From the NCBI GenBank assembly GCA_027858145.1, contig JAQIDF010000097.1, positions 1 through 35,005 on the forward strand: a DNA stretch of 35,005 nucleotides. The letters are read 5' to 3'. The stretch's first letter is position 1. Every line of letters begins with the position of its first letter. This DNA comes from Prolixibacteraceae bacterium. Lineage in GTDB: Bacteria > Bacteroidota > Bacteroidia > Bacteroidales > Prolixibacteraceae. This document shows positions 1,223 to 35,005 of this stretch, one piece after another. The notes below the pieces were generated by a model. That model had not been told where the DNA came from. It did no database searches and was given only the letters and a program-made list of their open reading frames with translations. The translations under genes and the position numbers were made by a program.

Positions 1223-4200
1223 ATGGCTAAACGTAACGACATCCACAAGGTACTAATTATTGGTTCAGGCCCCATAATAATAGGTCAGGCTTGTGAATTT
1301 GATTATTCCGGAACCCAGGCTTGTAAAGCGCTGAAAGCATTGGGGTATAAAATTGTGCTGGTTAATTCTAATCCGGCTACCATCATGACTGATCCATCAA
1401 CAGCCGATGTGACTTATATTGAACCCTTGAACGAATTTGCATTGACCAAAATTATTGAAAAAGAGCGTCCCGATGCATTGTTGCCCAACCTGGGCGGACA
1501 AACAGCATTGAACCTGTCATTAACGCTGGCCAATAAAGGAATTTTGGATAAATACAATGTGGAGGTCATCGGGGTTAACCTGAAAGCCATAGAAAAAGGG
1601 GAGGACCGTACCGAGTTCAAGAATTCCATGCTTTCTCTGGGCATCGATATGCCTGAAAGCAAGGCAGTGGAGACGGTGGAAGATGCGGAAGCGTTTGCTG
1701 CCGAACTGGGTTATCCGGTGGTGATTCGGCCTGCCTATACTATGGGGGGAACCGGTGGCGGACTGGTCTATAACCTGGAAGAATTGCGAACGATTGCTGC
1801 GCGTGGTATCGCGGCCAGTATGGTGAGTCAGATTCTGGTGGAAGAATCGGTCCTGGGTTGGGAAGAGCTGGAACTGGAAGTGGTGCGTGACTCCAAAAAC
1901 CAGATGATTACCGTTTGCTTCATCGAAAACGTGGATGCTATAGGTGTACATACGGGTGATTCGTTTTGTACGGCACCTATGCTCACCATCCCGGAAGAAT
2001 TACAGCAACGTCTTCAGGGATATGCTTACCGCATTGTGTCAGATATTGGCGTGATTGGCGGAACCAATGTGCAGTTTGCACACGACCCGGTGACCGACAG
2101 GGTGGTGGTCATCGAAATAAATCCGCGTACTTCGCGCTCATCGGCCCTGGCAAGTAAGGCCACCGGATTTCCTATTGCCTATGTTTCTGCTCTGCTGGCA
2201 GGTGGCCTCACGCTCGATGAAATTCCATACTGGCGAGATGGTTCGCTCGAAAAATATACCCCGGGAGGCGATTATGTGGTGGTGAAGTTTGCAAAGTGGG
2301 CTTTCGAGAAGTTCGACGGGCTTACCGATAAACTAGGCACACAGATGCAGGCCGTGGGTGAGGTGATGAGTATCGGTAAAACCTACAAAGAGGCTTTTCA
2401 TAAGGCCATCCGTTCGTTGGAGATAGACCGTTACGGACTGGGATTTGCAAAGGATTTTAATGACAAATCGCTCGACGAACTGATGGTGATGCTCAATGTT
2501 GCCACCAGCGAGCGTCAGTTTATTATGTATGAGGCTCTGCGCAAAGGTGCCGGTGTGGATGAACTGTTTGAAAAGACTTACATCAACCGGTGGTTCATCA
2601 CACAGATGAAAGAACTGGTTGAATTGGAAGAGAAAATATTATCGTTCAAAGGAAAGGAGCTGCCAGATGAGATCTTTATCCAGACTAAAAAGGATGGCTT
2701 TGCAGATAAATATCTGGCGCAGTTGCTCGGCATTACTGAAAAGGAAATCCGCGACAGGCGTAAAAAACTTGGGCTGAACGAGGCCTGGGAGCCGGTTCCG
2801 GTTAGCGGTGTGGCAGAAGATGCTGCTTATTACTACTCCACCTACAATGCTCCCAATAAAGTAAAGACCAGCGATAAGAAAAAAATCATGGTGCTGGGGG
2901 GAGGTCCCAACCGCATTGGTCAGGGGATTGAGTTTGATTATTGTTGTGTGCATGCCGCTTTTGCCCTCAAAGATGCCGGTTATGAGTCCATTATGGTCAA
3001 TTGTAACCCGGAGACAGTTTCTACCGATTACGATACGTCAGATAAACTTTATTTTGAGCCGCTGACTGCCGAAGATGTATTGAGTATCTATGAGCAGGAA
3101 CAGCCCGAAGGTGTGATTGTGCAGTTTGGCGGTCAGACCCCGCTGAACCTGGCCAAAGAATTGGAAGAAGCAGGTGTTAAGATCCTGGGTACGTCGCCGC
3201 ATACAATCGATTTGGCCGAAGACCGTGACCAATTCCGTCAGATTATGCAGAAACTGGAAATTCCGCAACCGGAGTCGGGTATGGCCAGTTCGTTGGATGA
3301 AGCACTCAAAATTGCCGACCGAATCGGTTACCCGTTAATGATTCGTCCTTCGTATGTATTAGGTGGTCGCGCTATGCGCATTATCCTCGATGAAGAAATG
3401 CTGGAGCAATACGTTAAGACAGCTACCATTGTGTCTCCTGATCGTCCATTGTTGATTGATAAGTTTCTGGAAGATGCCATCGAGGCCGAAGCAGATGCCA
3501 TTTCTGACGGTAAAGAAGCATTTGTTCCAGCAGTGATGCAACACATTGAATATGCCGGTATTCATTCGGGCGATTCGGCTTGTGTTATTCCTCCGGTAGT
3601 GATTCCTCAAAAGCACATCGACACCATGAAAGAATATACCCGTTGCATCGCGTTGGAGATGGATGTAAAGGGACTGATGAATATCCAGTACGCCATTTAT
3701 GATGATACGGTTTATATTATTGAAGCCAATCCGCGCGCATCACGTACCGTACCTCTGGTGTCTAAAGTTTGCGGGGTTTCAATGATACCCATTGCCACTG
3801 ATTTATTGTTGGGGAAAAACCTGAAATCATTTGCACTCAAAGAGAAAGTGTTTAAGCATTACGGAGTAAAAGAGGCTGTTTTTCCTTTTAATATGTTTTC
3901 AGAAGTGGATCCGCTGCTGGGGCCAGAGATGCGTTCTACCGGTGAGGTGCTTGGGCTGGCCGATAACTATGGAATGGCCTTCTTCAAATCTCAGGAAGCC
4001 ACCAAATCGGGACTTCCTATTGACGGTAATGTGCTGATTACCGTGGGTAACCGGGACAAAGACAAAGTTGTTGAGGTTGCCCGGGGTTTTCGGGATATGA
4101 ACTTTGGTATCCTTGCCACAAAAGGAACCTCTGCATTCCTGAAAGAGCATGGCATTGATTCGAAAAAAATCAAAAAAGTCCATGAAGGACGCCCCAATAT

Positions 4201-4426
4201 TGTAGATGCCATCAAAAACGGGGAGATACAATTGGTTGTGAACACCCCGGAAGGCAAGGAGAGTGAATACGATGATTCATACATCCGCAAAAATGCCATA
4301 AAGTATAATATTCCCTATATTACAACTACTTCTGCTGCTTTGGCTGCTACCGAAGGAATTCGTGAGCGGTTGAAAGGTGAATACAAAGTGAAGTCATTGC
4401 AGGATTATCATGCAGAAATAGAGTAG
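1223..4426 (+). CDS. carB: Carbamoyl-phosphate synthase large subunit
   Basis: This cytoplasmic enzyme makes carbamoyl phosphate from bicarbonate, ATP and ammonia delivered by the small subunit CarA, feeding pyrimidine and arginine synthesis. At 1067 residues it has the full family length and the usual internal duplication. The first half starts with a preATP-grasp domain (VLIIGSGPIIIGQACEFDYS) followed by an ATP-grasp domain around residues 130-400. The second half repeats this (VLGGGPNRIGQGIEFDYCC near 560) with an ATP-grasp around 680-930. The last roughly 130 residues are the MGS-like allosteric domain (ILATKGTSAFLKEHGI). No carA lies between it and the IS at the left edge, although carA often sits next to carB; it may be beyond the IS or elsewhere. 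A strong terminator follows directly. Confidence 0.97.
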   Translation: MAKRNDIHKVLIIGSGPIIIGQACEFDYSGTQACKALKALGYKIVLVNSNPATIMTDPSTADVTYIEPLNEFALTKIIEKERPDALLPNLGGQTALNLSLTLANKGILDKYNVEVIGVNLKAIEKGEDRTEFKNSMLSLGIDMPESKAVETVEDAEAFAAELGYPVVIRPAYTMGGTGGGLVYNLEELRTIAARGIAASMVSQILVEESVLGWEELELEVVRDSKNQMITVCFIENVDAIGVHTGDSFCTAPMLTIPEELQQRLQGYAYRIVSDIGVIGGTNVQFAHDPVTDRVVVIEINPRTSRSSALASKATGFPIAYVSALLAGGLTLDEIPYWRDGSLEKYTPGGDYVVVKFAKWAFEKFDGLTDKLGTQMQAVGEVMSIGKTYKEAFHKAIRSLEIDRYGLGFAKDFNDKSLDELMVMLNVATSERQFIMYEALRKGAGVDELFEKTYINRWFITQMKELVELEEKILSFKGKELPDEIFIQTKKDGFADKYLAQLLGITEKEIRDRRKKLGLNEAWEPVPVSGVAEDAAYYYSTYNAPNKVKTSDKKKIMVLGGGPNRIGQGIEFDYCCVHAAFALKDAGYESIMVNCNPETVSTDYDTSDKLYFEPLTAEDVLSIYEQEQPEGVIVQFGGQTPLNLAKELEEAGVKILGTSPHTIDLAEDRDQFRQIMQKLEIPQPESGMASSLDEALKIADRIGYPLMIRPSYVLGGRAMRIILDEEMLEQYVKTATIVSPDRPLLIDKFLEDAIEAEADAISDGKEAFVPAVMQHIEYAGIHSGDSACVIPPVVIPQKHIDTMKEYTRCIALEMDVKGLMNIQYAIYDDTVYIIEANPRASRTVPLVSKVCGVSMIPIATDLLLGKNLKSFALKEKVFKHYGVKEAVFPFNMFSEVDPLLGPEMRSTGEVLGLADNYGMAFFKSQEATKSGLPIDGNVLITVGNRDKDKVVEVARGFRDMNFGILATKGTSAFLKEHGIDSKKIKKVHEGRPNIVDAIKNGEIQLVVNTPEGKESEYDDSYIRKNAIKYNIPYITTTSAALAATEGIRERLKGEYKVKSLQDYHAEIE

Positions 4427-4448
4427 CATCTATAAGAATTAAAACCAG

Positions 4449-4482
4449 AAGGGAACACCATTAATGTGGTGTTCCCTTTTTT
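4449..4482 (+). terminator. Rho-independent terminator after carB
   Basis: AAGGGAACACCA pairs perfectly with TGGTGTTCCCTT across a 6-nt loop, and six T residues run from the end of the stem. It lies 22 bases after the carB stop and closes that transcription unit. Confidence 0.93.
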
Positions 4483-4612
4483 AATTTTGCAAGAGGTGTT
4501 ATCGTAATCCGTATTTTAAAAAAAAATAATGCATTTGTGGTTATAGGCATGTGACCTTTCTGTGATTGAAAGCTAAAATGGTAAATATTGCTAAAATAAA
4601 TCACACTTTTAC

Positions 4613-4643
4613 TTGCTATTTGAATTTAAAAGTGCTTATTTTG
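4613..4643 (+). promoter_or_regulatory. Candidate promoter of the rpmB operon
   Basis: TTG at 4613-4615 and TTATTTTG at 4636-4643 are separated by 20 bp, the spacing of Bacteroidota -33/-7 promoters; the -7 box differs from TAnnTTTG at one position. The leader to rpmB would be about 35 nt. The rest of 4483-4684 shows no gene. Confidence 0.42.
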
Positions 4644-4684
4644 CGTTCTGTTTGAAAAAAGTGTTCGGAGTAAATCAATAAGAC

Positions 4685-4927
4685 ATGTCAAAAGTTTGTC
4701 AAATAACCGGAAAGAAAGTTGTAGTGGGAAATAATGTTTCTCACTCAAAACGAAGAACAAAGCGTAGGTTTTATCCTAATTTGTTCAAGAAGAAATTTTA
4801 CCATCCCGAAGAAGACCGTTGGGTTACATTAAATGTATCTGCAGCCGGTATTCGAACCATTAATAAAATTGGTTTAACAAAAGCACTTAAAAGTGCACGG
4901 GAAAAGGGTTTAGTTGCTAACATTTAA
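4685..4927 (+). CDS. rpmB: 50S ribosomal protein bL28
   Basis: An 80-residue basic protein with the bL28 signature at the N-terminus ([20 protein letters not shown]), similar in length to the E. coli protein. It binds 23S rRNA in the large subunit near the E site. It has a single cysteine instead of CxxC pairs, so it is the zinc-independent form. It is first in a three-gene ribosomal operon with rpmG 14 bp downstream, the usual Bacteroidota arrangement. Confidence 0.96.
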
Positions 4928-4941
4928 AAGAAGTACAAGCA

Positions 4942-5130
4942 ATGGCTAAGAAATCAAAAGGGAACAGGATTCAAGTTATTTTGGAGTGCACAGAGCACAA
5001 AAATAGCGGTTTACCCGGTACATCACGTTATATTACAACTAAAAACCGTAAGAATACAACTGAGCGGTTAGAGTTGAAAAAATATAACCCGGTATTGAAA
5101 AAAGTTACAGTGCATAAAGAAATAAAATAA
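4942..5130 (+). CDS. rpmG: 50S ribosomal protein bL33
   Basis: A 62-residue lysine-rich protein matching bL33 ([14 protein letters not shown], then [21 protein letters not shown]). Only one cysteine is present where zinc-binding paralogs have two CxxC pairs, so this is the zinc-free type. It lies between rpmB and the 50-aa DUF4295 gene with 14- and 7-bp gaps, so the three are very probably co-transcribed. It is a large-subunit protein near the E-site tRNA. Confidence 0.96.
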
Positions 5131-5137
5131 GTAAGAT

Positions 5138-5290
5138 ATGGCTAAAAAAGCAGTTGCATCATTACAAAAAGGAGCTGGTAGAGGTCACGCTAAAGTGATT
5201 AAAATGGTTAAATCCGAAAAGACCGGTGCTTATACTTTCGAAGAAAGTATTGTAACAAATGAAGAAGTTCAGGATCACTTTAAAAAGTAA
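5138..5290 (+). CDS. DUF4295 small ribosome-associated protein (bL38 type)
   Basis: A 50-codon gene too short for the ORF track: it starts MAKKAVASLQKG at 5138 and ends DHFKK with TAA at 5288-5290. It is basic, glycine- and lysine-rich at the start, and follows rpmG by 7 bp; a terminator follows 20 bp later. This rpmB-rpmG-small gene order is typical of Bacteroidota, where the third gene is annotated DUF4295. From memory, the Flavobacterium ribosome structure identified a Bacteroidota-specific large-subunit protein, bL38, of this family. The position supports a ribosomal role; the exact name is recalled, not verified. Confidence 0.88.
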   Translation: MAKKAVASLQKGAGRGHAKVIKMVKSEKTGAYTFEESIVTNEEVQDHFKK

Positions 5291-26738: not shown

Positions 26739-27974
26739 ATGTCAAAAGAATTACTCAATTTTAACAACGAGCCCGGAACAGCGGCTCACATCAAAGTTAT
26801 TGGTGTGGGCGGCGGTGGTGGTAATGCCGTAAACTACATGTGTCATCGGGGTATTACTGATGTAGGGTTCATGTTATGCAATACCGATTCACAAGCGCTC
26901 GATAACAGCCCCGTTGAAACATGTGTCAGGCTTGGCAATACCCTCACCGAAGGTCGTGGGGCCGGTAATATGCCTGAGCTTGGCCGTGAAGCTGCCGGTG
27001 AAAGCATTGATGAAATTCGTGCTTTGCTCGAAGGTACTACCGATATGGTTTTTATTACCGCCTGTATGGGTGGCGGGACAGGGACCGGTGCTGCACCTGT
27101 GATTGCCGAAGTTTGCAAAGAATTGGGTATCCTCACCATTGCCGTAGTTACGGTTCCGGCTAAATCTGAAGGTCGTAAGCGGTATAATCAAGCCATCGAG
27201 GGGGTAAATCAGATAAAGGAGCATGTTGACAGTCTTTTGGTTATCAACAACGATAAAATACGTGAAATTTATGGCAACCTGCCGGCTTCACAGGCTTTCT
27301 CAAAGGCCGATGAAATACTCGCAACGGCTGTTAAAGGTATTGCCGAGATTATTACTTTGCACGGCAGTATCAATATCGACTTTGCCGATGTGAGCACAGT
27401 GCTTACCGGAAGTCGTGTGTTTATTATGGGCACCGGATTTGCAGAGGGTGAAGGCCGTGCATATAAGGCTGTGGAAGAGGCGCTTGAATCGCCATTGCTC
27501 GATAGTAACGATATTTACGGAACCGATGAGATATTGCTCAATATAACTTCAGGCACCGACGAAATTACTATTGGCGAAATTGGTGATGTTATTGAATACT
27601 TACAGGAAAAAGCCGGTGACGATGCCAACATTATTTGGGGAAATGGTTTTGACGATTCCCTGGGCTCAAAAATTAGTGTGACCATTGTGGCTACAGGGTT
27701 CAAAACTAATCCTTCTGAAATATTACAGGAACAGGAAAAAGAACCCGAACAAAAAGTTGAACTCGAAATGCCTGAAGACAAAATTTTCATCAACGAGGAA
27801 GAAGAAGATGCCCCGGTAGCAAGTCGTGATGAAACGAAAGAAACTGGTAAGAAGAATAATGAAAAGAATAATCCTGTGCGAAAAAAATCCCGCAAAGATT
27901 CAAAGAAAGACGGATGGCTCAAACGACAATTTGAACTCTTTTTTGAAGAAAAAAGCGCCGATTTTGATGCTTGA
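26739..27974 (+). CDS. FtsZ paralog 1 (divergent, FtsA-like C-terminal tail)
   Basis: A 411-residue tubulin-like GTPase. The core is complete: T1 [13 protein letters not shown], tubulin signature GGGTGTG (111-117), and the T7 catalytic loop NIDFAD (N212, D214, D217), so GTP hydrolysis at filament interfaces looks possible. Differences from ordinary FtsZ: the T4 loop reads ACMGGG (Cys109 for Gly), and the usual PF..EG after the sixth strand reads PAKSEG. After a charged linker (about 325-390), the protein ends in [21 protein letters not shown] and has no IPAYxRR-type C-terminal peptide. It lies between ftsA and a second ftsZ and is likely co-transcribed with both. It probably co-assembles with or modulates FtsZ2; that role is inferred. 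Confidence 0.93.
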
Positions 27975-28038: not shown

Positions 28039-29442
28039 ATGGAAAACAACGATATTTTAACCAATTTTCAACTGCCGGTAAACGAAGGTGGTATTATAAA
28101 AGTGATTGGTGTTGGTGGTGGCGGCGGTAACGCCGTTAACCATATGAGCCGTCGGGGTATTACCGATGTCGATTTTATGATTTGCAATACCGACTCGCAA
28201 GCACTGGCAAATAGTACGGTGCAAACAAAGGTTCAGCTTGGTTCTTCGCTTACCGAAGGTCGTGGAGCCGGAAACAAACCCGAGATAGGGCGTTGTGCAG
28301 CTCAGGAGAATATCGAAGATGTAAAAGCTGCCATTGGTGAGCGTACTAAAATGGTGTTCATCACTGCCGGAATGGGTGGTGGAACGGGTACCGGTGCCGG
28401 TCCTGTAATTGCCGAAGCTTGCAACGAACTTGGGTTGCTTACAGTGGGTATTGTTACCATTCCTTTCCGTAACGAAGGAAAACGCCGCATACAACAAGCC
28501 ATTGAAGGAATACAGGAAATGGAAAGGCATGTTGATTCGTTGCTGGTGATTAACAACGAACGCATTCGTGAAATGTATGGCGACTTTAAACTTTCGGAGG
28601 CTTTCTCGCGTGCCGATGATGTACTGGCTACAGCTGCTAAAGGTATAGCTGAAATTATTACTGTTCATGGTTATATTAATGTTGACTTTGCCGATGTTGA
28701 AACAGTAATGCGACAGAGTGGGGTGGCACTTATGGGCTCGGCTGTTGGTAAAGGCGAAAACCGTGCACTGGCAGCGGTTGAAGAAGCGTTGAATTCTCCT
28801 TTACTAAACAACAATAATATTGAAGGCGCTCAAAATATACTCTTAAATGTAACCTCCGGAGAGGAAGAAATTACGATGGATGAAATCGGGCAGATTACCG
28901 ACTATATTCAGGCACGTGCCGGTTACGACGCCGACCTGATTTGGGGTAATGGCATTGACGAATCGTTTGAAGGCGAAGTGTGTGTTACAGTTGTAGCGAC
29001 CGGGTTTAGCACATCTTCAATTCCTGAAGTGCTGGCCAATAAAAAGGTTGAAAAAACATATCATACCCTCGAAGATGAAAAGAAAGCCCAGTCGCGTGAA
29101 AACCTGAAAAAAGAGAAACCTGTTCAGGAAACATTTCAGTTCGACACACCAAAGCCGTCCGATGAGTTTGACAGTTTGTATAAAGGAGCCGGGAAAGCAC
29201 GTGATGAAGGAGTTGATGACCAGCCGGCACGCAAGGTGGAGTTTAATGTCGATTTTGCCGGTACAGAAGAGGAAGAGATTGAAAACCTTGAAAATATACC
29301 AGCCTATAAGCGACGGCAGATTAAAATGAAATCGAAACAAAAGAAAGAGCGCGAAGTTTCACGTTTCAGGCTTGAAAACGATGAGAATGATGAAATATTT
29401 TTAAATGAAAACAATAGTTATTTACACGATAATGTTGATTAA
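28039..29442 (+). CDS. ftsZ: Cell division protein FtsZ (canonical copy, paralog 2)
   Basis: FtsZ polymerises into the cytokinetic ring. The 467-residue protein has a canonical GTPase core: [28 protein letters not shown] (tubulin signature), IPFRNEGKRR and the T7 loop NVDFAD. A variable linker follows from about 330 to 410, then a conserved-looking C-terminal peptide ENIPAYKRRQIKM (419-430), the expected FtsA-binding site, and a further basic then acidic tail. It begins 64 bp after ftsZ1 and shares most core residues with it, so the pair arose by duplication. Having both the normal T4 loop and the C-terminal peptide, this copy is the likely main FtsZ. Confidence 0.95.
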   Translation: MENNDILTNFQLPVNEGGIIKVIGVGGGGGNAVNHMSRRGITDVDFMICNTDSQALANSTVQTKVQLGSSLTEGRGAGNKPEIGRCAAQENIEDVKAAIGERTKMVFITAGMGGGTGTGAGPVIAEACNELGLLTVGIVTIPFRNEGKRRIQQAIEGIQEMERHVDSLLVINNERIREMYGDFKLSEAFSRADDVLATAAKGIAEIITVHGYINVDFADVETVMRQSGVALMGSAVGKGENRALAAVEEALNSPLLNNNNIEGAQNILLNVTSGEEEITMDEIGQITDYIQARAGYDADLIWGNGIDESFEGEVCVTVVATGFSTSSIPEVLANKKVEKTYHTLEDEKKAQSRENLKKEKPVQETFQFDTPKPSDEFDSLYKGAGKARDEGVDDQPARKVEFNVDFAGTEEEEIENLENIPAYKRRQIKMKSKQKKEREVSRFRLENDENDEIFLNENNSYLHDNVD

Positions 29443-30206: not shown

Positions 30207-30584
30207 CTATTCCATGTAGTTTTGCCATTCAACCAAAATGTATTTCGTTTTGCCATTTTCTGTTCTTTTAAGAAAGCCGTATTCGTAGCAAAATAGATAC
30301 ACATCGTTTTTCTTGTTTTTCCAGTAGTGGGTGAAAAACCCTGGATTGAAACCTTCCCTCTGTATTTTTTCAGCTCTGACCGTTGATTTGCCGGCCTTGT
30401 TAAAATCACGAAGTATTCGACGGTTCAATTTGAGTTGTTTGTCGATCTTTTTGAACAGCGAACTTTCCTTTTCTTTGTTGCGCAGGTAGTGATAATTGCT
30501 TTTACAATAGTCGCTACAGAATTTTTTATCTATTCGACCTTCGATGTTCTCTTTGCAGTTAAGGCATTGTTTGGTTTCGTTCAT
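30207..30584 (-). CDS. Zinc-ribbon protein of unknown function
   Basis: A 125-residue basic protein with an N-terminal treble-clef/zinc-ribbon: CLNCKENIEGR then FCSDYCKSNYH, giving a C-x2-C and C-x3-C pair. The middle is lysine-rich and helical, and the C-terminal half (FFTHYWKNKKNDVYLFCYEYGFLK) looks like a small beta domain that could be a winged-helix-like fold. DNA or RNA binding is a reasonable guess. It is transcribed away from the recombinase gene with only an 86-bp gap containing a perfect palindrome, so the two may be co-regulated. I cannot name the function. Confidence 0.75.
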   Translation of the reverse strand: MNETKQCLNCKENIEGRIDKKFCSDYCKSNYHYLRNKEKESSLFKKIDKQLKLNRRILRDFNKAGKSTVRAEKIQREGFNPGFFTHYWKNKKNDVYLFCYEYGFLKRTENGKTKYILVEWQNYME

Positions 30585-30618
30585 AGTCGTAGATTTAAAC
30601 GTATAAATCTACGACTAT
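30583..30618. promoter_or_regulatory. Perfect 15-bp palindrome in the divergent promoter region
   Basis: ATAGTCGTAGATTTA (30583-30597) and TAAATCTACGACTAT (30604-30618) are exact reverse complements with a 6-nt AACGTA centre. One arm runs into the start codon of the zinc-ribbon gene. The other overlaps TATTTTTG (30616-30623), an exact TAnnTTTG -7 box for the recombinase gene. It could be an operator shared by both genes, a start-codon-masking hairpin, or a recombinase binding site. Confidence 0.8.
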
Positions 30619-30670: not shown

Positions 30671-31798
30671 ATGAAATCTTCCAGGCACATTAACTTAAAG
30701 CATTTGCTTATTGATAGTCAAAAATTTATTGGTTTGCAGTTTTATCAGGATCAGGCTCTTGAGGCAATGACAAAACAGTTGCCCAATGCTCAATGGAGTG
30801 AGGATTACCGAATGTATTATATCGCGAACAATCCATCAAATGTCAATTTAATCTTTAAAACGTTTAGAGGAACGGCATGGATTAACGGGAAATATTTTTT
30901 CACAAACAAAGCCATTCATAAAGGTGTAGAAGAGCCTAATCTTGAGAGTCTTAAGAAAAGAAAAGCGACTCCGGATGTGCGTTACTGCCCGGATTCATAT
31001 ATTCAGAAATTAGAAACTTGCCGTTACGCAGAAAACACAGCAAGAACCTACGTTTGCTGCTTTGAGAGATTTATTAACTATTACAAAGAATACGAATTGT
31101 TAAATATTGATGAGAAGATGATCAGGGATTATTTGTATTCCCTATTATCTCTCGGAATTTCTGACTCTTACCTGAACCAATCAATTAATGCCATTAAGTT
31201 TTACTACGAACTGGTAGAGGGTATGCCCAACCGTTTTTATTCGGTAGACCGGCCTCGAAAAAAGCAAAAGCTACCCAACGTATTGTCAAAGGAAGAGATA
31301 AAAAGTATGATTTACAATACACCAAACATTAAACACAAATGCATTGTGAGTATTTTGTATTCGTCGGGGCTGCGCAGAAGTGAAGTGATTAATCTGAACC
31401 TGCAGGATATTGACAGTAAGCGAATGGTTGTTTTTGTTAAAGGAGCAAAAGGAAACAAAGACAGATTAACGATTTTAAGTGAAAACGTTCTAAAAGATTT
31501 GCGACTTTATTATATGAAAAACAAACCCAGGGAGTTTTTGTTTGAGGGGCCCAAAAACAGACAGTACAGTGTTTCCAGTGTAGCTAACATTGTTGAGAAG
31601 GCAGGCAGGCAAGCAAGAATAAAAAAGAAAATTACTCCACACATGCTACGTCACAGCTTTGCCACCCATTTGCTTGAGGCGGGTGTCGACCTTCGCTATA
31701 TACAAAGTTTACTGGGTCACAGCAGTTCAAAAACCACAGAAATATATACTCATGTAGCCACTAATATAATAAAAACAATAAAAAGCCCGCTCGACTAA
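30671..31798 (+). CDS. Xer/integron-integrase-like tyrosine recombinase
   Basis: A 375-residue site-specific recombinase. Residues 1-100 form an extra N-terminal domain (QLPNAQWSEDYRMYYI) seen, from memory, in a Bacteroidota group of integrases. Residues 105-190 are the SAM-like core-binding domain (CRYAENTARTYVCCFERFINYY). The catalytic domain has R235 (SSGLRRSEV), a Lys in the beta-hairpin (GAKGNKDR), H324 and R327 (TPHMLRHSFATHLLEAG), H350 (LLGHSS) and the nucleophile Y359 (EIYTHV); it ends KSPLD as many integron-type integrases do. The segment FLFEGPKNRQYSVSSVANIVEKAG has Xer length, so the extra helix typical of IntI is not present. It lies directly upstream of two cassette-like modules in the same orientation. 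Confidence 0.9.
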   Translation: MKSSRHINLKHLLIDSQKFIGLQFYQDQALEAMTKQLPNAQWSEDYRMYYIANNPSNVNLIFKTFRGTAWINGKYFFTNKAIHKGVEEPNLESLKKRKATPDVRYCPDSYIQKLETCRYAENTARTYVCCFERFINYYKEYELLNIDEKMIRDYLYSLLSLGISDSYLNQSINAIKFYYELVEGMPNRFYSVDRPRKKQKLPNVLSKEEIKSMIYNTPNIKHKCIVSILYSSGLRRSEVINLNLQDIDSKRMVVFVKGAKGNKDRLTILSENVLKDLRLYYMKNKPREFLFEGPKNRQYSVSSVANIVEKAGRQARIKKKITPHMLRHSFATHLLEAGVDLRYIQSLLGHSSSKTTEIYTHVATNIIKTIKSPLD

Positions 31799-31841: not shown

Positions 31842-31870
31842 ACAATTGTTTTTACCCAAATGTTACCCAC
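31842..31870 (+). other. Candidate attI-like insertion site
   Basis: Just after the recombinase gene, TTACCCA occurs at 31852-31858 and again at 31863-31869, 11 bp apart, preceded by the palindrome ACAATTGT (31842-31849). The second copy is part of GTTACCCACA, whose exact reverse complement closes the next module at 33487-33496. The inferred crossover is between G31862 and T31863. Assignment as attI is by position only. Confidence 0.5.
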
Positions 31871-33614
31871 AATAAAAATTTTGATACTGCAAGAATGATT
31901 AGACTTTTAAAAAAAAGGAGAAATAAAGATTCACAAAACACTTTCGGCGATCTAAAAAATGACTCGTTCGATTTTGAGCAGATTAAAAAATATTTTGGTA
32001 AAAAAGATCATTCAAATTCGTTTCAATTATTAAGTGATAAAACTTGTAATGACCTAGATTTTGAGGAATTATTCATGTTCGTTGACAGAACAGAATCCAG
32101 GATTGGACAACAATTTTTATATGGCAAATTAAGGTCTATTCCTTATAGAAAAGAAGACAATTCTAAAAATGAATGGTTAATTCAAAAATTAAGTGAGGAT
32201 CTGGATTTTAGACTTTTCGTTCGAAAACAATTAAAAAAACTAAATAATCAAGATGCTTATTATATAACTTCAATCTTCCAAGAGGATCATGTAAAACCAC
32301 CAAAATGGTTTTTTGTTACAAGACTTCTGTCTTTTGCAAACATACTTTCATTACTCCTGTTATTTGTGACTGTTGATATGGTTTTCGTTATTGGAATTGT
32401 ATTTATAATCAATTTGATAATTCATTATTGGAACAAAAGAAACCTCTATCAATATTTAAATTCAATACCTCAGCTACTCAGGCTTAATAAAATTGCGAAA
32501 GAGTTGTTTAATAACAATCGGCTAAAAGACATTAATCCCGATCTTCTCAAATCTATCAGTATTCTGGAAAAAGTCAAACGAAGAATGTCGTTTTTCAATA
32601 TCGAAGCTAAATTCCAAGGAGACTTTGAGGCTGTATTTTGGGGAATAATGGAACTTTTTAAAATTCTATTTTTAATAGAACCAATCATATTATTTGGTGT
32701 ATTAAAGCAACTTGACTCAAAAAGAAAACAAATTGAAACGATCTTTCAATTTGTTGGTTATATCGATTCGTCACTTTCAATTGCTTCACTAAGAAAAGGT
32801 ACAGGTAGCTTTTGCTTACCGACAATTATTGAAACTAAAAAAACAATAAATGCACTCGAAGTTTATCATCCTTTAATCCCTGAGTGTATAAAAAACAGTA
32901 TTGAAGTCAAGAAAAAATCAATTCTTCTTACTGGTTCAAATATGTCTGGCAAAACTTCATTTATTCGAACAATAGCGATCAATGCAATAACTGGACAAAC
33001 ATTAAACACTTGTTTTGCAGATCAATTCTCAATGCCCAGAATGAGCATCTCTTCTGCTATAAGGATTAGTGATGATTTATTGAATGACAAAAGTTATTAT
33101 TTTGAAGAAGTACTCACAATCAAGGAGATGATTGACAAAAGCAATAATGAAATACCAAACTTATTCTTACTTGACGAGATTTTTAAAGGTACTAATACAA
33201 TTGAGCGAATTTCTGCTGGTAAGGCAGTCTTGTCTGCATTGACTAAAAATGAAAATATTGTATTTGTATCCACTCACGATATAGAATTAGCCGATTTGCT
33301 AAAGGATGAATTTGACTTGTTTCATTTCAGTGAGAAAGTAGACCATAAAACCGTTGATTTTGATTATAAATTAAAAGAGGGTAAATTAAAAAACAGAAAC
33401 GCTATCAGGATCCTTCAGATTAACGACTATCCTGAAAAGATTATAAACGAAGCTATTGAAATATCAAAAAAATTAGATGAAATTACTGTGGGTAACATTT
33501 TGCAAATTCCATAAGGGGTTCAGTGGTATGCCAGCAGCGGTTTTCCGCTCATTCTCTCGTCATTACCATGACAGAGAATCACACGCAAACCCTTACGTAA
33601 CTTGCAATTTACCG
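31863..33614 (+). mobile_element. Integron-like cassette 1 (MutS-like ATPase gene plus attC-like site)
   Basis: Bounded by G^TTACCCACA at the start and the G^TT of the following module at the end. It contains one gene on the same strand, only 32 nt after the boundary, with its recombination hairpin overlapping the gene's 3' end. One-gene content, short leader and complementary ends are integron cassette hallmarks. The DNA is clearly richer in A/T than the dcw genes. Confidence 0.62.
31895..33514 (+). CDS. Membrane-associated MutS-family ATPase
   Basis: A 539-residue protein whose C-terminal 200 residues are a MutS-type ABC ATPase: Walker A GSNMSGKT (347-354), a following SSAIRISDDL segment, Walker B LFLLDEIFKGTN (423-434) and the STHD switch histidine (H461). 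The N-terminal part resembles the helical lever/clamp of MutS, but there is no mismatch-recognition domain. Two adjacent hydrophobic stretches (about 143-177) and another near 250-270 suggest a membrane protein, a type found in Bacteroidota without a known role. The last eight codons are part of the attC-like site, so the 3' end is constrained by recombination. Function unknown; it is not the housekeeping MutS. Confidence 0.85.
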   Translation: MIRLLKKRRNKDSQNTFGDLKNDSFDFEQIKKYFGKKDHSNSFQLLSDKTCNDLDFEELFMFVDRTESRIGQQFLYGKLRSIPYRKEDNSKNEWLIQKLSEDLDFRLFVRKQLKKLNNQDAYYITSIFQEDHVKPPKWFFVTRLLSFANILSLLLLFVTVDMVFVIGIVFIINLIIHYWNKRNLYQYLNSIPQLLRLNKIAKELFNNNRLKDINPDLLKSISILEKVKRRMSFFNIEAKFQGDFEAVFWGIMELFKILFLIEPIILFGVLKQLDSKRKQIETIFQFVGYIDSSLSIASLRKGTGSFCLPTIIETKKTINALEVYHPLIPECIKNSIEVKKKSILLTGSNMSGKTSFIRTIAINAITGQTLNTCFADQFSMPRMSISSAIRISDDLLNDKSYYFEEVLTIKEMIDKSNNEIPNLFLLDEIFKGTNTIERISAGKAVLSALTKNENIVFVSTHDIELADLLKDEFDLFHFSEKVDHKTVDFDYKLKEGKLKNRNAIRILQINDYPEKIINEAIEISKKLDEITVGNILQIP

Positions 33615-33623
33615 TTATGGGCT
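33487..33623 (+). other. attC-like recombination site 1
   Basis: Arms in order: TGTGGGTAAC (33487-33496, complement of the cassette start at 31862-31871), TTGCAAATT (33500-33508) pairing with AACTTGCAA (33599-33607, one mismatch), AAGGG (33513-33517) pairing with CCCTT (33590-33594), and the boundary GTTATGGGCT (33614-33623). Between them are AGCGG-TTTT-CCGCT (33536-33549) and a 12-bp stem ATTCTCTcGTCAT/ATGACAGAGAAT (33551-33579) with one unpaired C at 33558. This matches the R''-L''-L'-R' plan with an extrahelical base that defines integron attC sites. Confidence 0.65.
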
Positions 33624-33642: not shown

Positions 33643-34875
33643 ATGATAGAATCTTACTTAATAGAAAGCGTACTTTCTTCTTTGTTTGACTTTTTGAAAA
33701 AGAAAGTTATAACAACACCTGCTGACAGAGCCAAATTTGATTTCATTATTAAAGATGATGACGGTAAAAAAATTGCAATCGAGGTAAAAGGACAAAATGT
33801 AACAATAAAAACACTTTTAAATATCGAACGTGCTCTTCAAGACTATAATGATATTGATGAGTTTTATTTAATCACTCCTGAAGAACCTCCCAAAGATTTT
33901 GAAAAACGGATAAAGAGCGTTTTCAAAGACTTCAAGATTGTAGTTCATTGGATGGGTATTAATCAATTCATTCAAAAACAGAATTTAGGCATTGAATTAA
34001 ATGATGATATTAGAAGTTCACTTTTAAATTTACAAGTTGCAGCTGTTACTTCCAAATTTGAGGATTATGACAAAAAGTTTATTGGTTCACATATAGGAAC
34101 CACAAACCTTACAGAGCACTTAAAACATAATATCCAGAATGTTAAAGAAGGGAAAGTTGATAGAACTAGTATTCTTTTTGGATTAAGAAGACAATTCCCA
34201 TATAGTACTATAGTTGAGCTAGAAAAAAAACCTGAAGAATTATCAAAGACTTTAAAGTTCGGTAAAAAATATGACGATGCAATTATCGTCCTAACTGACA
34301 TAAAGAATTTTTCGACATTGGTTTCCGTTTCCGACCCTGAGGAATTGAATGACCTGATGAGTAAATACTATACTAATGCACGAGAGTTAGTTTTTAAATA
34401 TGGGGGGATACTTGACAAATTTATTGGAGACGCAGTTTTGGCAATTTTTAATTATCCAATAAAGAACAAAATATCGTTTACACATGCGACAAAGTTTTGC
34501 GCCGAACTTATATTAATGGGTGAAAATATATTAAATGAATTTCAACGAAAACTTGACCAAGAGATTGAGACTGGAACCCGTGTAGGATTGGCAACCGGTC
34601 CTATTTATGCATTGAATATTGGAAAGGAAGATTTTGAAGTCACATTTATTGGAGACAAGATTAATTTTGCTGCTCGTCTAGAGAAAAACTGCGATGTAAA
34701 TGGAATTCTTATGAGTAATAGATTTTTTCATAAATTAGACGACAGCAATCACGATTTTATTGACAGAATTGAGAAGACTGAAAAAAAGATAGACCCTAAA
34801 GATGCAAAAGGACAAGTTGGTATTACAACAGCTTGGCAAATTCAAAGAAATCAAATGGAAAAGATTGTAGAATAA
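33643..34875 (+). CDS. PD-(D/E)XK-like domain fused to class III nucleotidyl cyclase
   Basis: A 410-residue protein with two recognisable parts. Residues 1-110 fit a restriction-endonuclase-like fold: D33 in KFDFIIKDDDG and E47-V-K49 in IAIEVKGQN make the D...ExK pattern. Residues about 210-400 are a class III adenylyl/guanylyl cyclase domain: metal Asp D219 (VLTDIKNFSTL), D263 with K259 (LDKFIGDAVLAIF), T334 in VTFIGD, N341 and R345 in INFAARLE. Lys plus Thr at the base-selecting positions is the pattern of bacterial adenylyl cyclases. No membrane segment or signal peptide is visible, so it is cytoplasmic. The combination and mobile context suggest an anti-phage or signalling role, possibly related to Pycsar-type cyclase systems; that is inference. 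Confidence 0.82.
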   Translation: MIESYLIESVLSSLFDFLKKKVITTPADRAKFDFIIKDDDGKKIAIEVKGQNVTIKTLLNIERALQDYNDIDEFYLITPEEPPKDFEKRIKSVFKDFKIVVHWMGINQFIQKQNLGIELNDDIRSSLLNLQVAAVTSKFEDYDKKFIGSHIGTTNLTEHLKHNIQNVKEGKVDRTSILFGLRRQFPYSTIVELEKKPEELSKTLKFGKKYDDAIIVLTDIKNFSTLVSVSDPEELNDLMSKYYTNARELVFKYGGILDKFIGDAVLAIFNYPIKNKISFTHATKFCAELILMGENILNEFQRKLDQEIETGTRVGLATGPIYALNIGKEDFEVTFIGDKINFAARLEKNCDVNGILMSNRFFHKLDDSNHDFIDRIEKTEKKIDPKDAKGQVGITTAWQIQRNQMEKIVE

Positions 34876-34882
34876 AAATTAC

Positions 34883-35005
34883 AGCCCATAACAATTAGGT
34901 ACCAATCACACGTATGATCCCAGGGACTCTACTGTGATTGTGCCTGTGTTGCACCAAACCTAAAGGGGAATCGGAGCTGTGTAGTTTCAATCTTTTTGTT
35001 TTTGG
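34883..35005 (+). other. attC-like recombination site 2 (partial)
   Basis: After AGCCCATAAC (34883-34892) come TTAGGT (34895-34900) pairing with ACCTAA (34958-34963), and inside it CAATCACAcGTA/TACTGTGATTG (34903-34914 with 34930-34940), an 11-bp stem with one unpaired C at 34911. The inner TCC-CAG-GGA can also pair. The layout parallels site 1 although the sequence differs. The closing GTT is expected beyond the right edge. Confidence 0.55.

Follow-up and report, generated by a model that had tools for sequence, protein, structure and literature searches.

Cyclic-nucleotide immune systems normally use several genes, which share out sensing, synthesis and effect between them. In Pycsar, a class III cyclase-fold enzyme (PycC) is encoded in a compact accessory locus together with an effector that joins a cyclic-nucleotide-binding domain (CNBD) to a TIR or TM part. 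To our knowledge, phage sensing by the Pycsar cyclases is still unexplained. A different set of relevant proteins comprises PD-(D/E)XK sensors and nucleases, such as NOV_C (DUF3883), SfsA, EcoT38I, the Avs4 nuclease domain, NucS/EndoMS and Shedu; we know of none of these that is joined to a nucleotidyl cyclase. Of the V. cholerae integron cassettes that have been tested, about 10% confer protection from phage, and defence genes in integrons stand out as unusually compact (PMC12409362). The anti-phage cassettes described so far (Darracq 2025; Kieffer 2025; Getz; PMC12409362) are small single-gene cassettes, each with its own attC.

Here we analyse a 35,005-nucleotide stretch of DNA from a Prolixibacteraceae bacterium (the window), which encodes a predicted nuclease-like domain and a nucleotidyl cyclase in one chain. 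We computed the fusion reading frame and its conservation, the family and active site of the cyclase, the likely fold of the N-terminal domain, and the integron-type cassette that carries the gene in two Bacteroidota. Both parts of the protein are known; their combination appears new within what was searched.

Reading frame and conservation of the fusion

The reading frame is open from the ATG at 33643 to the stop codon at 34873-34875, and no long competing frame accompanies its 410 codons (Table 1). The gene is single-copy in the source genome. A peptide-pattern scan of 84,980 species genomes found a single full-length homolog, in an uncultured Maribacter (contig of 3,425 bases); the scan used exact 8-residue peptides, which diverged copies would escape. 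The homolog is of equal length (410 aa), has an intact frame and is 70% identical. Comparison of the two genes gives dN of 0.21 against dS of about 2.6 (saturated), and thus the fusion gene is under purifying selection. The fusion is genuine, as supported by the open reading frame and its conservation. For the helical linker, a family assignment was sought and none matched.

Table 1. Features of the fusion gene and of the cassette array, in window coordinates
Feature	Position	Strand	Remarks
Tyrosine recombinase (XerA-like)	30671..31798	+	Directly upstream of array, co-directional with cassettes
First cassette, MutS domain V ATPase gene 31895-33514	31862..33614	+	Start complementary to attC R'' over 14 bases
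attC between MutS-like and cyclase cassettes	33487..33622	+	Bottom-strand fold z -4.4
Cyclase cassette start, R' core G^TTATGGGCT	33614..33623	+	Complementary to 34883-34892
Fusion protein: PD-(D/E)XK-like N-domain, helical linker, class III adenylate-cyclase-like domain	33643..34875	+	410 aa
Predicted PD-(D/E)XK fold, residues 1-~110	33643..33972	+	Weak NOV_C (PF13020) and SfsA RE-domain matches
D33...E47-V-K49 motif, codons 33-49	33739..33789	+	Conserved in homolog
Helical linker, residues 121-205	34003..34257	+	53% identical to Maribacter homolog
Class III nucleotidyl cyclase catalytic domain, residues 208-375	34264..34767	+	D219, K259, D263, T334, N341, R345
R'' end of cyclase cassette attC (AGCCCATAACAATTAGGT)	34883..34900	+	

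Cyclase domain and comparison with Pycsar

The C-terminal part matches Guanylate_cyc (PF00211) of Pfam at residues 208-375 with 58 bits (E 1.3e-15), well past the curated cut-off of 21.9 bits. An earlier note, made from the DNA sequence alone, had placed a D...EVK motif (D33, E47, K49) and a class III cyclase in one chain; given the open frame and this match, and with the residues located as claimed, that description holds. The best match among solved structures is CyaB of P. aeruginosa (PDB 3R5G; 1.9e-13), and in the alignment to CyaB all of the expected active-site residues find counterparts. Thus, D219 and D263 pair with the metal aspartates of CyaB, K259 with the lysine four residues ahead of the second aspartate, T334 with the CyaB threonine, and the transition-state residues N341 and R345 with the CyaB Asn and Arg. 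All six are kept in the Maribacter homolog, in agreement with the suggestion of the earlier note that the metal, base-selecting and transition-state residues are intact. The Lys/Thr pair is that of class IIIb adenylate cyclases, so the predicted reaction is the conversion of ATP to cAMP. The fusion protein therefore shares its catalytic domain and six active-site residues with the CyaB-type class III adenylate cyclases (3R5G). Where the cyclases retrieved for comparison carry a GAF, PAS, receiver or membrane sensor as N-terminal partner, however, it carries a PD-(D/E)XK-like domain instead.

It should be noted that the PycC profiles of PADLOC also match the cyclase domain (best 1.3e-15). The match spans residues 195-400 only, with the N-terminal domain unmatched, and was rejected as a sign of Pycsar membership because it is confined to the core that these cyclases share and does not exceed the Pfam Guanylate_cyc match in strength. 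In EaPycC the base is contacted by F100, R142 and Q144, and in BcPycC by Y50, D94 and R97 (PMC11224242); by residue comparison, these pyrimidine-recognising residues are absent from the fusion protein, which has the adenine-type K259/T334 instead. AnPycC has a lysine, K104 (PMC11224242), which we infer to occupy the same position as K259. No gene for a CNBD effector (TIR or TM) is adjacent, either in the window up to the contig end at 35005 or on the Maribacter contig. The fusion protein thus resembles Pycsar in having a class III cyclase-fold enzyme in a compact accessory locus, and differs from it in the base pocket, in the extra nuclease-fold domain and in the lack of a linked effector gene. 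On present evidence it is not a Pycsar member, and the contrast with the Pycsar layout drawn in the earlier note is fair.

N-terminal domain

The D...ExK motif alone is within chance. Its loose form, D-x9-22-[DE]xK, occurs in 83% of shuffles of residues 1-120 and in 48 of the 124 tiles of other ORFs of the window, while a strict hydrophobic form occurs in 17% of the shuffles; counting of the loose motif was for this reason dropped as evidence for a nuclease fold. Profile matches, predicted fold and local conservation raise the motif above this background.

In the full-length Pfam scan, NOV_C was found sub-threshold at residues 3-59. When residues 1-102 were scanned alone, it reached 21.6 bits (E 2.4e-4), 0.5 bit below the cut-off of 22.1, and in the Maribacter homolog it was found at 1.7e-3. 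The SfsA RE domain matched at 0.03-0.04 in both sequences. The two matches both lie over the D...ExK segment, in the same place in both sequences. We take NOV_C (PF13020, DUF3883) and SfsA to be PD-(D/E)XK-like families, and the SfsA model's own name reads "RE domain". Weak matches to pre-PUA_NIP7, Csn2, DUF2207, HYExAFE, beta-lactamase and GST were judged to be chance or partial.

A fold search with a full-length AlphaFold2 model, built on two sequences, was uninformative (pLDDT 37), and the N-terminal domain was refolded alone. The resulting model of residues 1-130, also built on two sequences, has a pLDDT of 62 (70-79 over residues 41-110) and a pTM of 0.62. Its order is helix-strand-strand-helix-strand-helix-strand (H3-17, E34-37, E43-48, H55-66, E73-78, H84-93 and E100-105), in which the two consecutive strands bear D33 and E47/K49. 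In the model, D33 lies just ahead of strand 34-37, and E47 and K49 at the end of strand 43-48, as expected for the strand positions of the motif. The best Foldseek matches in the PDB include EcoT38I (prob 1.00), Avs4 (1.00) and the repair endonuclease 2VLD (0.99), with RPB5 chains, SfsA, EndoMS and Card1 further among the best-ranked; no PDB match reached E <= 0.001 (best 3e-3) with this model of pLDDT 62. In the viral library, restriction endonucleases, Mrr, endonuclease I and RPB5 were among the best, and the single match beyond E 0.001 was to an RPB5-like subunit (7e-4). RPB5 is an example of a PD-(D/E)XK-like fold without an enzymatic role. The profile and fold support for the N-terminal domain is all below formal thresholds. 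We regard the predicted fold, with moderate confidence, as PD-(D/E)XK-like, as the earlier note had proposed. The predicted fold and the D...ExK motif are those of the sensors and nucleases listed above, to which the fusion protein shows only marginal sequence similarity.

Conservation within the domain is uneven. D33, E47 and K49 are all kept in the one known homolog, and so are the glutamates E3 and E8 of helix 1. Between the two sequences, 45 of 52 positions are identical in residues 1-52, 79 of 153 in residues 53-205 and 142 of 175 in residues 206-380. The presumed active-site block 1-52 is thus 87% identical in the sole full-length homolog, compared with 52% for the remainder of the N-terminal part (Fisher p 6e-6). 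Constraint on this block is thus similar to that on the cyclase core, with drift in the remainder of the domain, a pattern that within these two sequences favours a working active site rather than a dead fold.

Cassette context and distribution

From 30671 to the contig end at 35005, the genes, all on the forward strand, encode a XerA-like tyrosine recombinase, a MutS domain V ATPase and the cyclase fusion. The latter two each begin just past a GTT core. The cyclase cassette starts at 33614 (GTTATGGGCT) with 10 bases that are perfectly complementary to the post-gene sequence at 34883-34892, a degree of complementarity matched in 4 of 5,000 shuffles. A start core complementary to post-gene sequence is the signature of an integron cassette with its attC, which bears out the word "cassette" used in the earlier note; the lack of a partner gene, also claimed there, is found in both the source and Maribacter, where the gene forms a single-gene cassette. 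The cyclase cassette's own attC, cut by the contig end at 35005, showed no folding above background.

Two other contigs of the source genome carry copies (84% and 82%) of the attC that precedes the fusion gene (33487-33622). One of these contigs (C262) carries a second cassette with the same GTTATGGGC core. The product of this cassette, at 111-1051, is 273 aa long and matched nothing in Pfam or PADLOC; for the stretch downstream of it, reading by eye points to a reverse-transcriptase-like gene and to FISUMP-like repeats. On the other contig (C456), homologs of IetA and IetS (PADLOC 2.8e-129 and 5.4e-179) lie beside the 84% copy. IetAS is a known defence pair. Within this pair, at 1836-5279, IetS is split by a frameshift near 2783, which may be an assembly error or mark a decayed gene. 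No defence gene was found on the contig of either copy of the fusion, where the neighbours are the MutS-like ATPase (source) and an M24 peptidase (Maribacter).

The recombinase passes the XerA_Arch model and falls below the integron-integrase cut-off, its match to the latter model being split. Between its first Arg box and HxLR lie about 93 residues, which suggests that the IntI-specific insertion is missing. This enzyme may be the one that serves these arrays; a recombinase with 35% identity is encoded close to the end of a Maribacter contig. The fusion cassette is like the anti-phage integron cassettes in being small and single-gene with its own attC, and the source genome has IetAS beside a related attC, but the array recombinase does not look like a canonical IntI.

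Several other observations concern the surrounding genes. The MutS domain V ATPase (31895-33514) has a hydrophobic, possibly membrane-spanning segment and a weak match to PtuA-like ATPases (PADLOC 5.5e-6). An 18-base inverted repeat at 30583-30618, with adjacent arms that are 94% complementary, lies between a divergent small zinc-ribbon-like gene (30207-30584, reverse strand) and the recombinase, and is a possible operator or terminator. Further upstream, tandem ftsZ-like genes (26739-27974 and 28039-29442; family by eye from the translation) follow ftsA. Such a duplication of ftsZ is uncommon and might be specific to the lineage.

The Maribacter copy follows an M24 peptidase cassette. Its cassette shows start/attC complementarity (GTTGTGCACA), and its attC folds well (z -4.3) and differs in sequence from the source attC. 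The apparent presence of the same gene in two Bacteroidota orders, in differently marked cassettes, points to horizontal movement. It also places one homolog in a cassette array, so homologs are not confined to housekeeping signalling loci, a possibility that the earlier note had raised against its own reading. Profile searches of about 1,900 further Bacteroidota genomes, and searches of viral contigs, phages and plasmids, found no other fusion. Other cyclases found in those searches (receiver-cyclase proteins, large sensor or membrane proteins and cyclase-first plasmid proteins) have different architectures; two matches to the N-terminal domain at about 6e-4 (G152 and G238), with stop codons and partial coverage, were treated as chance. 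We found no paper on this fusion in the open-licence literature.

Discussion

Our leading interpretation, held tentatively, is that the gene is mobile and encodes, by itself, an accessory protein whose domain of PD-(D/E)XK fold binds, and probably cuts, DNA and controls the cyclase in the same chain. The active sites of class III cyclases form between the two chains of a homodimer, and DNA binding as a dimer is common among PD-(D/E)XK proteins. Upon meeting DNA that is damaged or comes from an invader (ends, or DNA that is unusual or modified), the N-terminal domain would bring two chains together, and since the cyclase active site lies at a homodimer interface, dimerisation on DNA, or a rearrangement, would switch on cAMP synthesis. 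Raised cAMP would then act via host CRP-like receptors, or via an effector outside the cassette, and so protect the cell; direct damage to the invader by the nuclease fold may come in addition. CRP-like cAMP receptors are encoded in both the source and Maribacter genomes, so the receiver need not be cassette-encoded. These host proteins could receive the signal, in which case the fusion would not have the self-contained layout that the earlier note offered as one possibility. A point against our interpretation is that a cAMP alarm would mix with host cAMP signalling and so would make a poor dedicated alarm.

On this interpretation, the fusion is an accessory and probably anti-phage protein, with phage or plasmid defence as its most likely selective role. 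The share of tested V. cholerae cassettes that are anti-phage, together with the compactness of integron defence genes, makes defence a reasonable prior, and a defence role of the fusion is plausible. A narrower proposal, that the PD-(D/E)XK domain detects the ends or modifications of foreign DNA and directly triggers a cAMP immune alarm, we consider doubtful at present. Of the overall interpretation in the earlier note, the fusion, at the level of predicted fold, and the contrast with Pycsar stand, while DNA cutting or an effector role by the N-terminal domain, and an anti-phage role, are retained as proposals.

Alternatively, the protein might be an accessory cAMP signalling enzyme outside defence, in which a catalytically dead fold that binds nucleic acid or a ligand tunes the cyclase, with output to host CRP. 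The high rank of RPB5-like non-enzymatic folds, the generic nature of the class III cyclase, the neighbouring cassettes, which are not defence genes, and the CRP-like receptors are all consistent with such a role, but the motif residues are all kept, in a block whose conservation greatly exceeds that of the other parts of the N-terminal domain, and the rare, mobile distribution is unlike that of core signalling; we regard this explanation as rather unlikely. It is also unlikely, in our opinion, that the protein is a self-contained effector whose nuclease domain cleaves or kills, with the cyclase domain or cAMP regulating it in cis and no outside receiver. The one-gene cassette without a partner in both genomes and the strong constraint on D33, E47, K49 and the helix-1 glutamates would fit this model, as would the fold match to Card1, a PD-(D/E)XK nuclease activated by cyclic oligonucleotides. 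However, the chain has no cyclic-nucleotide-binding domain and hence no obvious receptor in cis, and it retains a fully intact cyclase active site, something that a domain with a regulatory role alone could do without. A Pycsar variant that makes cyclic pyrimidines, with its effector elsewhere in an array that is incomplete at the contig end, is very improbable: the PycC match reflects the cyclase core, the base-recognising Lys/Thr pair is that of CyaB, and no effector that combines TIR or TM with a cyclic-nucleotide domain lies next to the gene in either genome.

Returning to the proposed DNA-responsive cyclase, the union of a DNA-handling fold and a cyclase in one chain would make the sensing step directly testable in purified protein. 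Integrons favour small cassettes, and the fusion would show how they could compress a signalling defence into one gene. If the narrower proposal is true, a DNA-gated cyclase would be a bacterial DNA-to-cyclic-nucleotide sensor that follows cGAS-like logic with unrelated parts.
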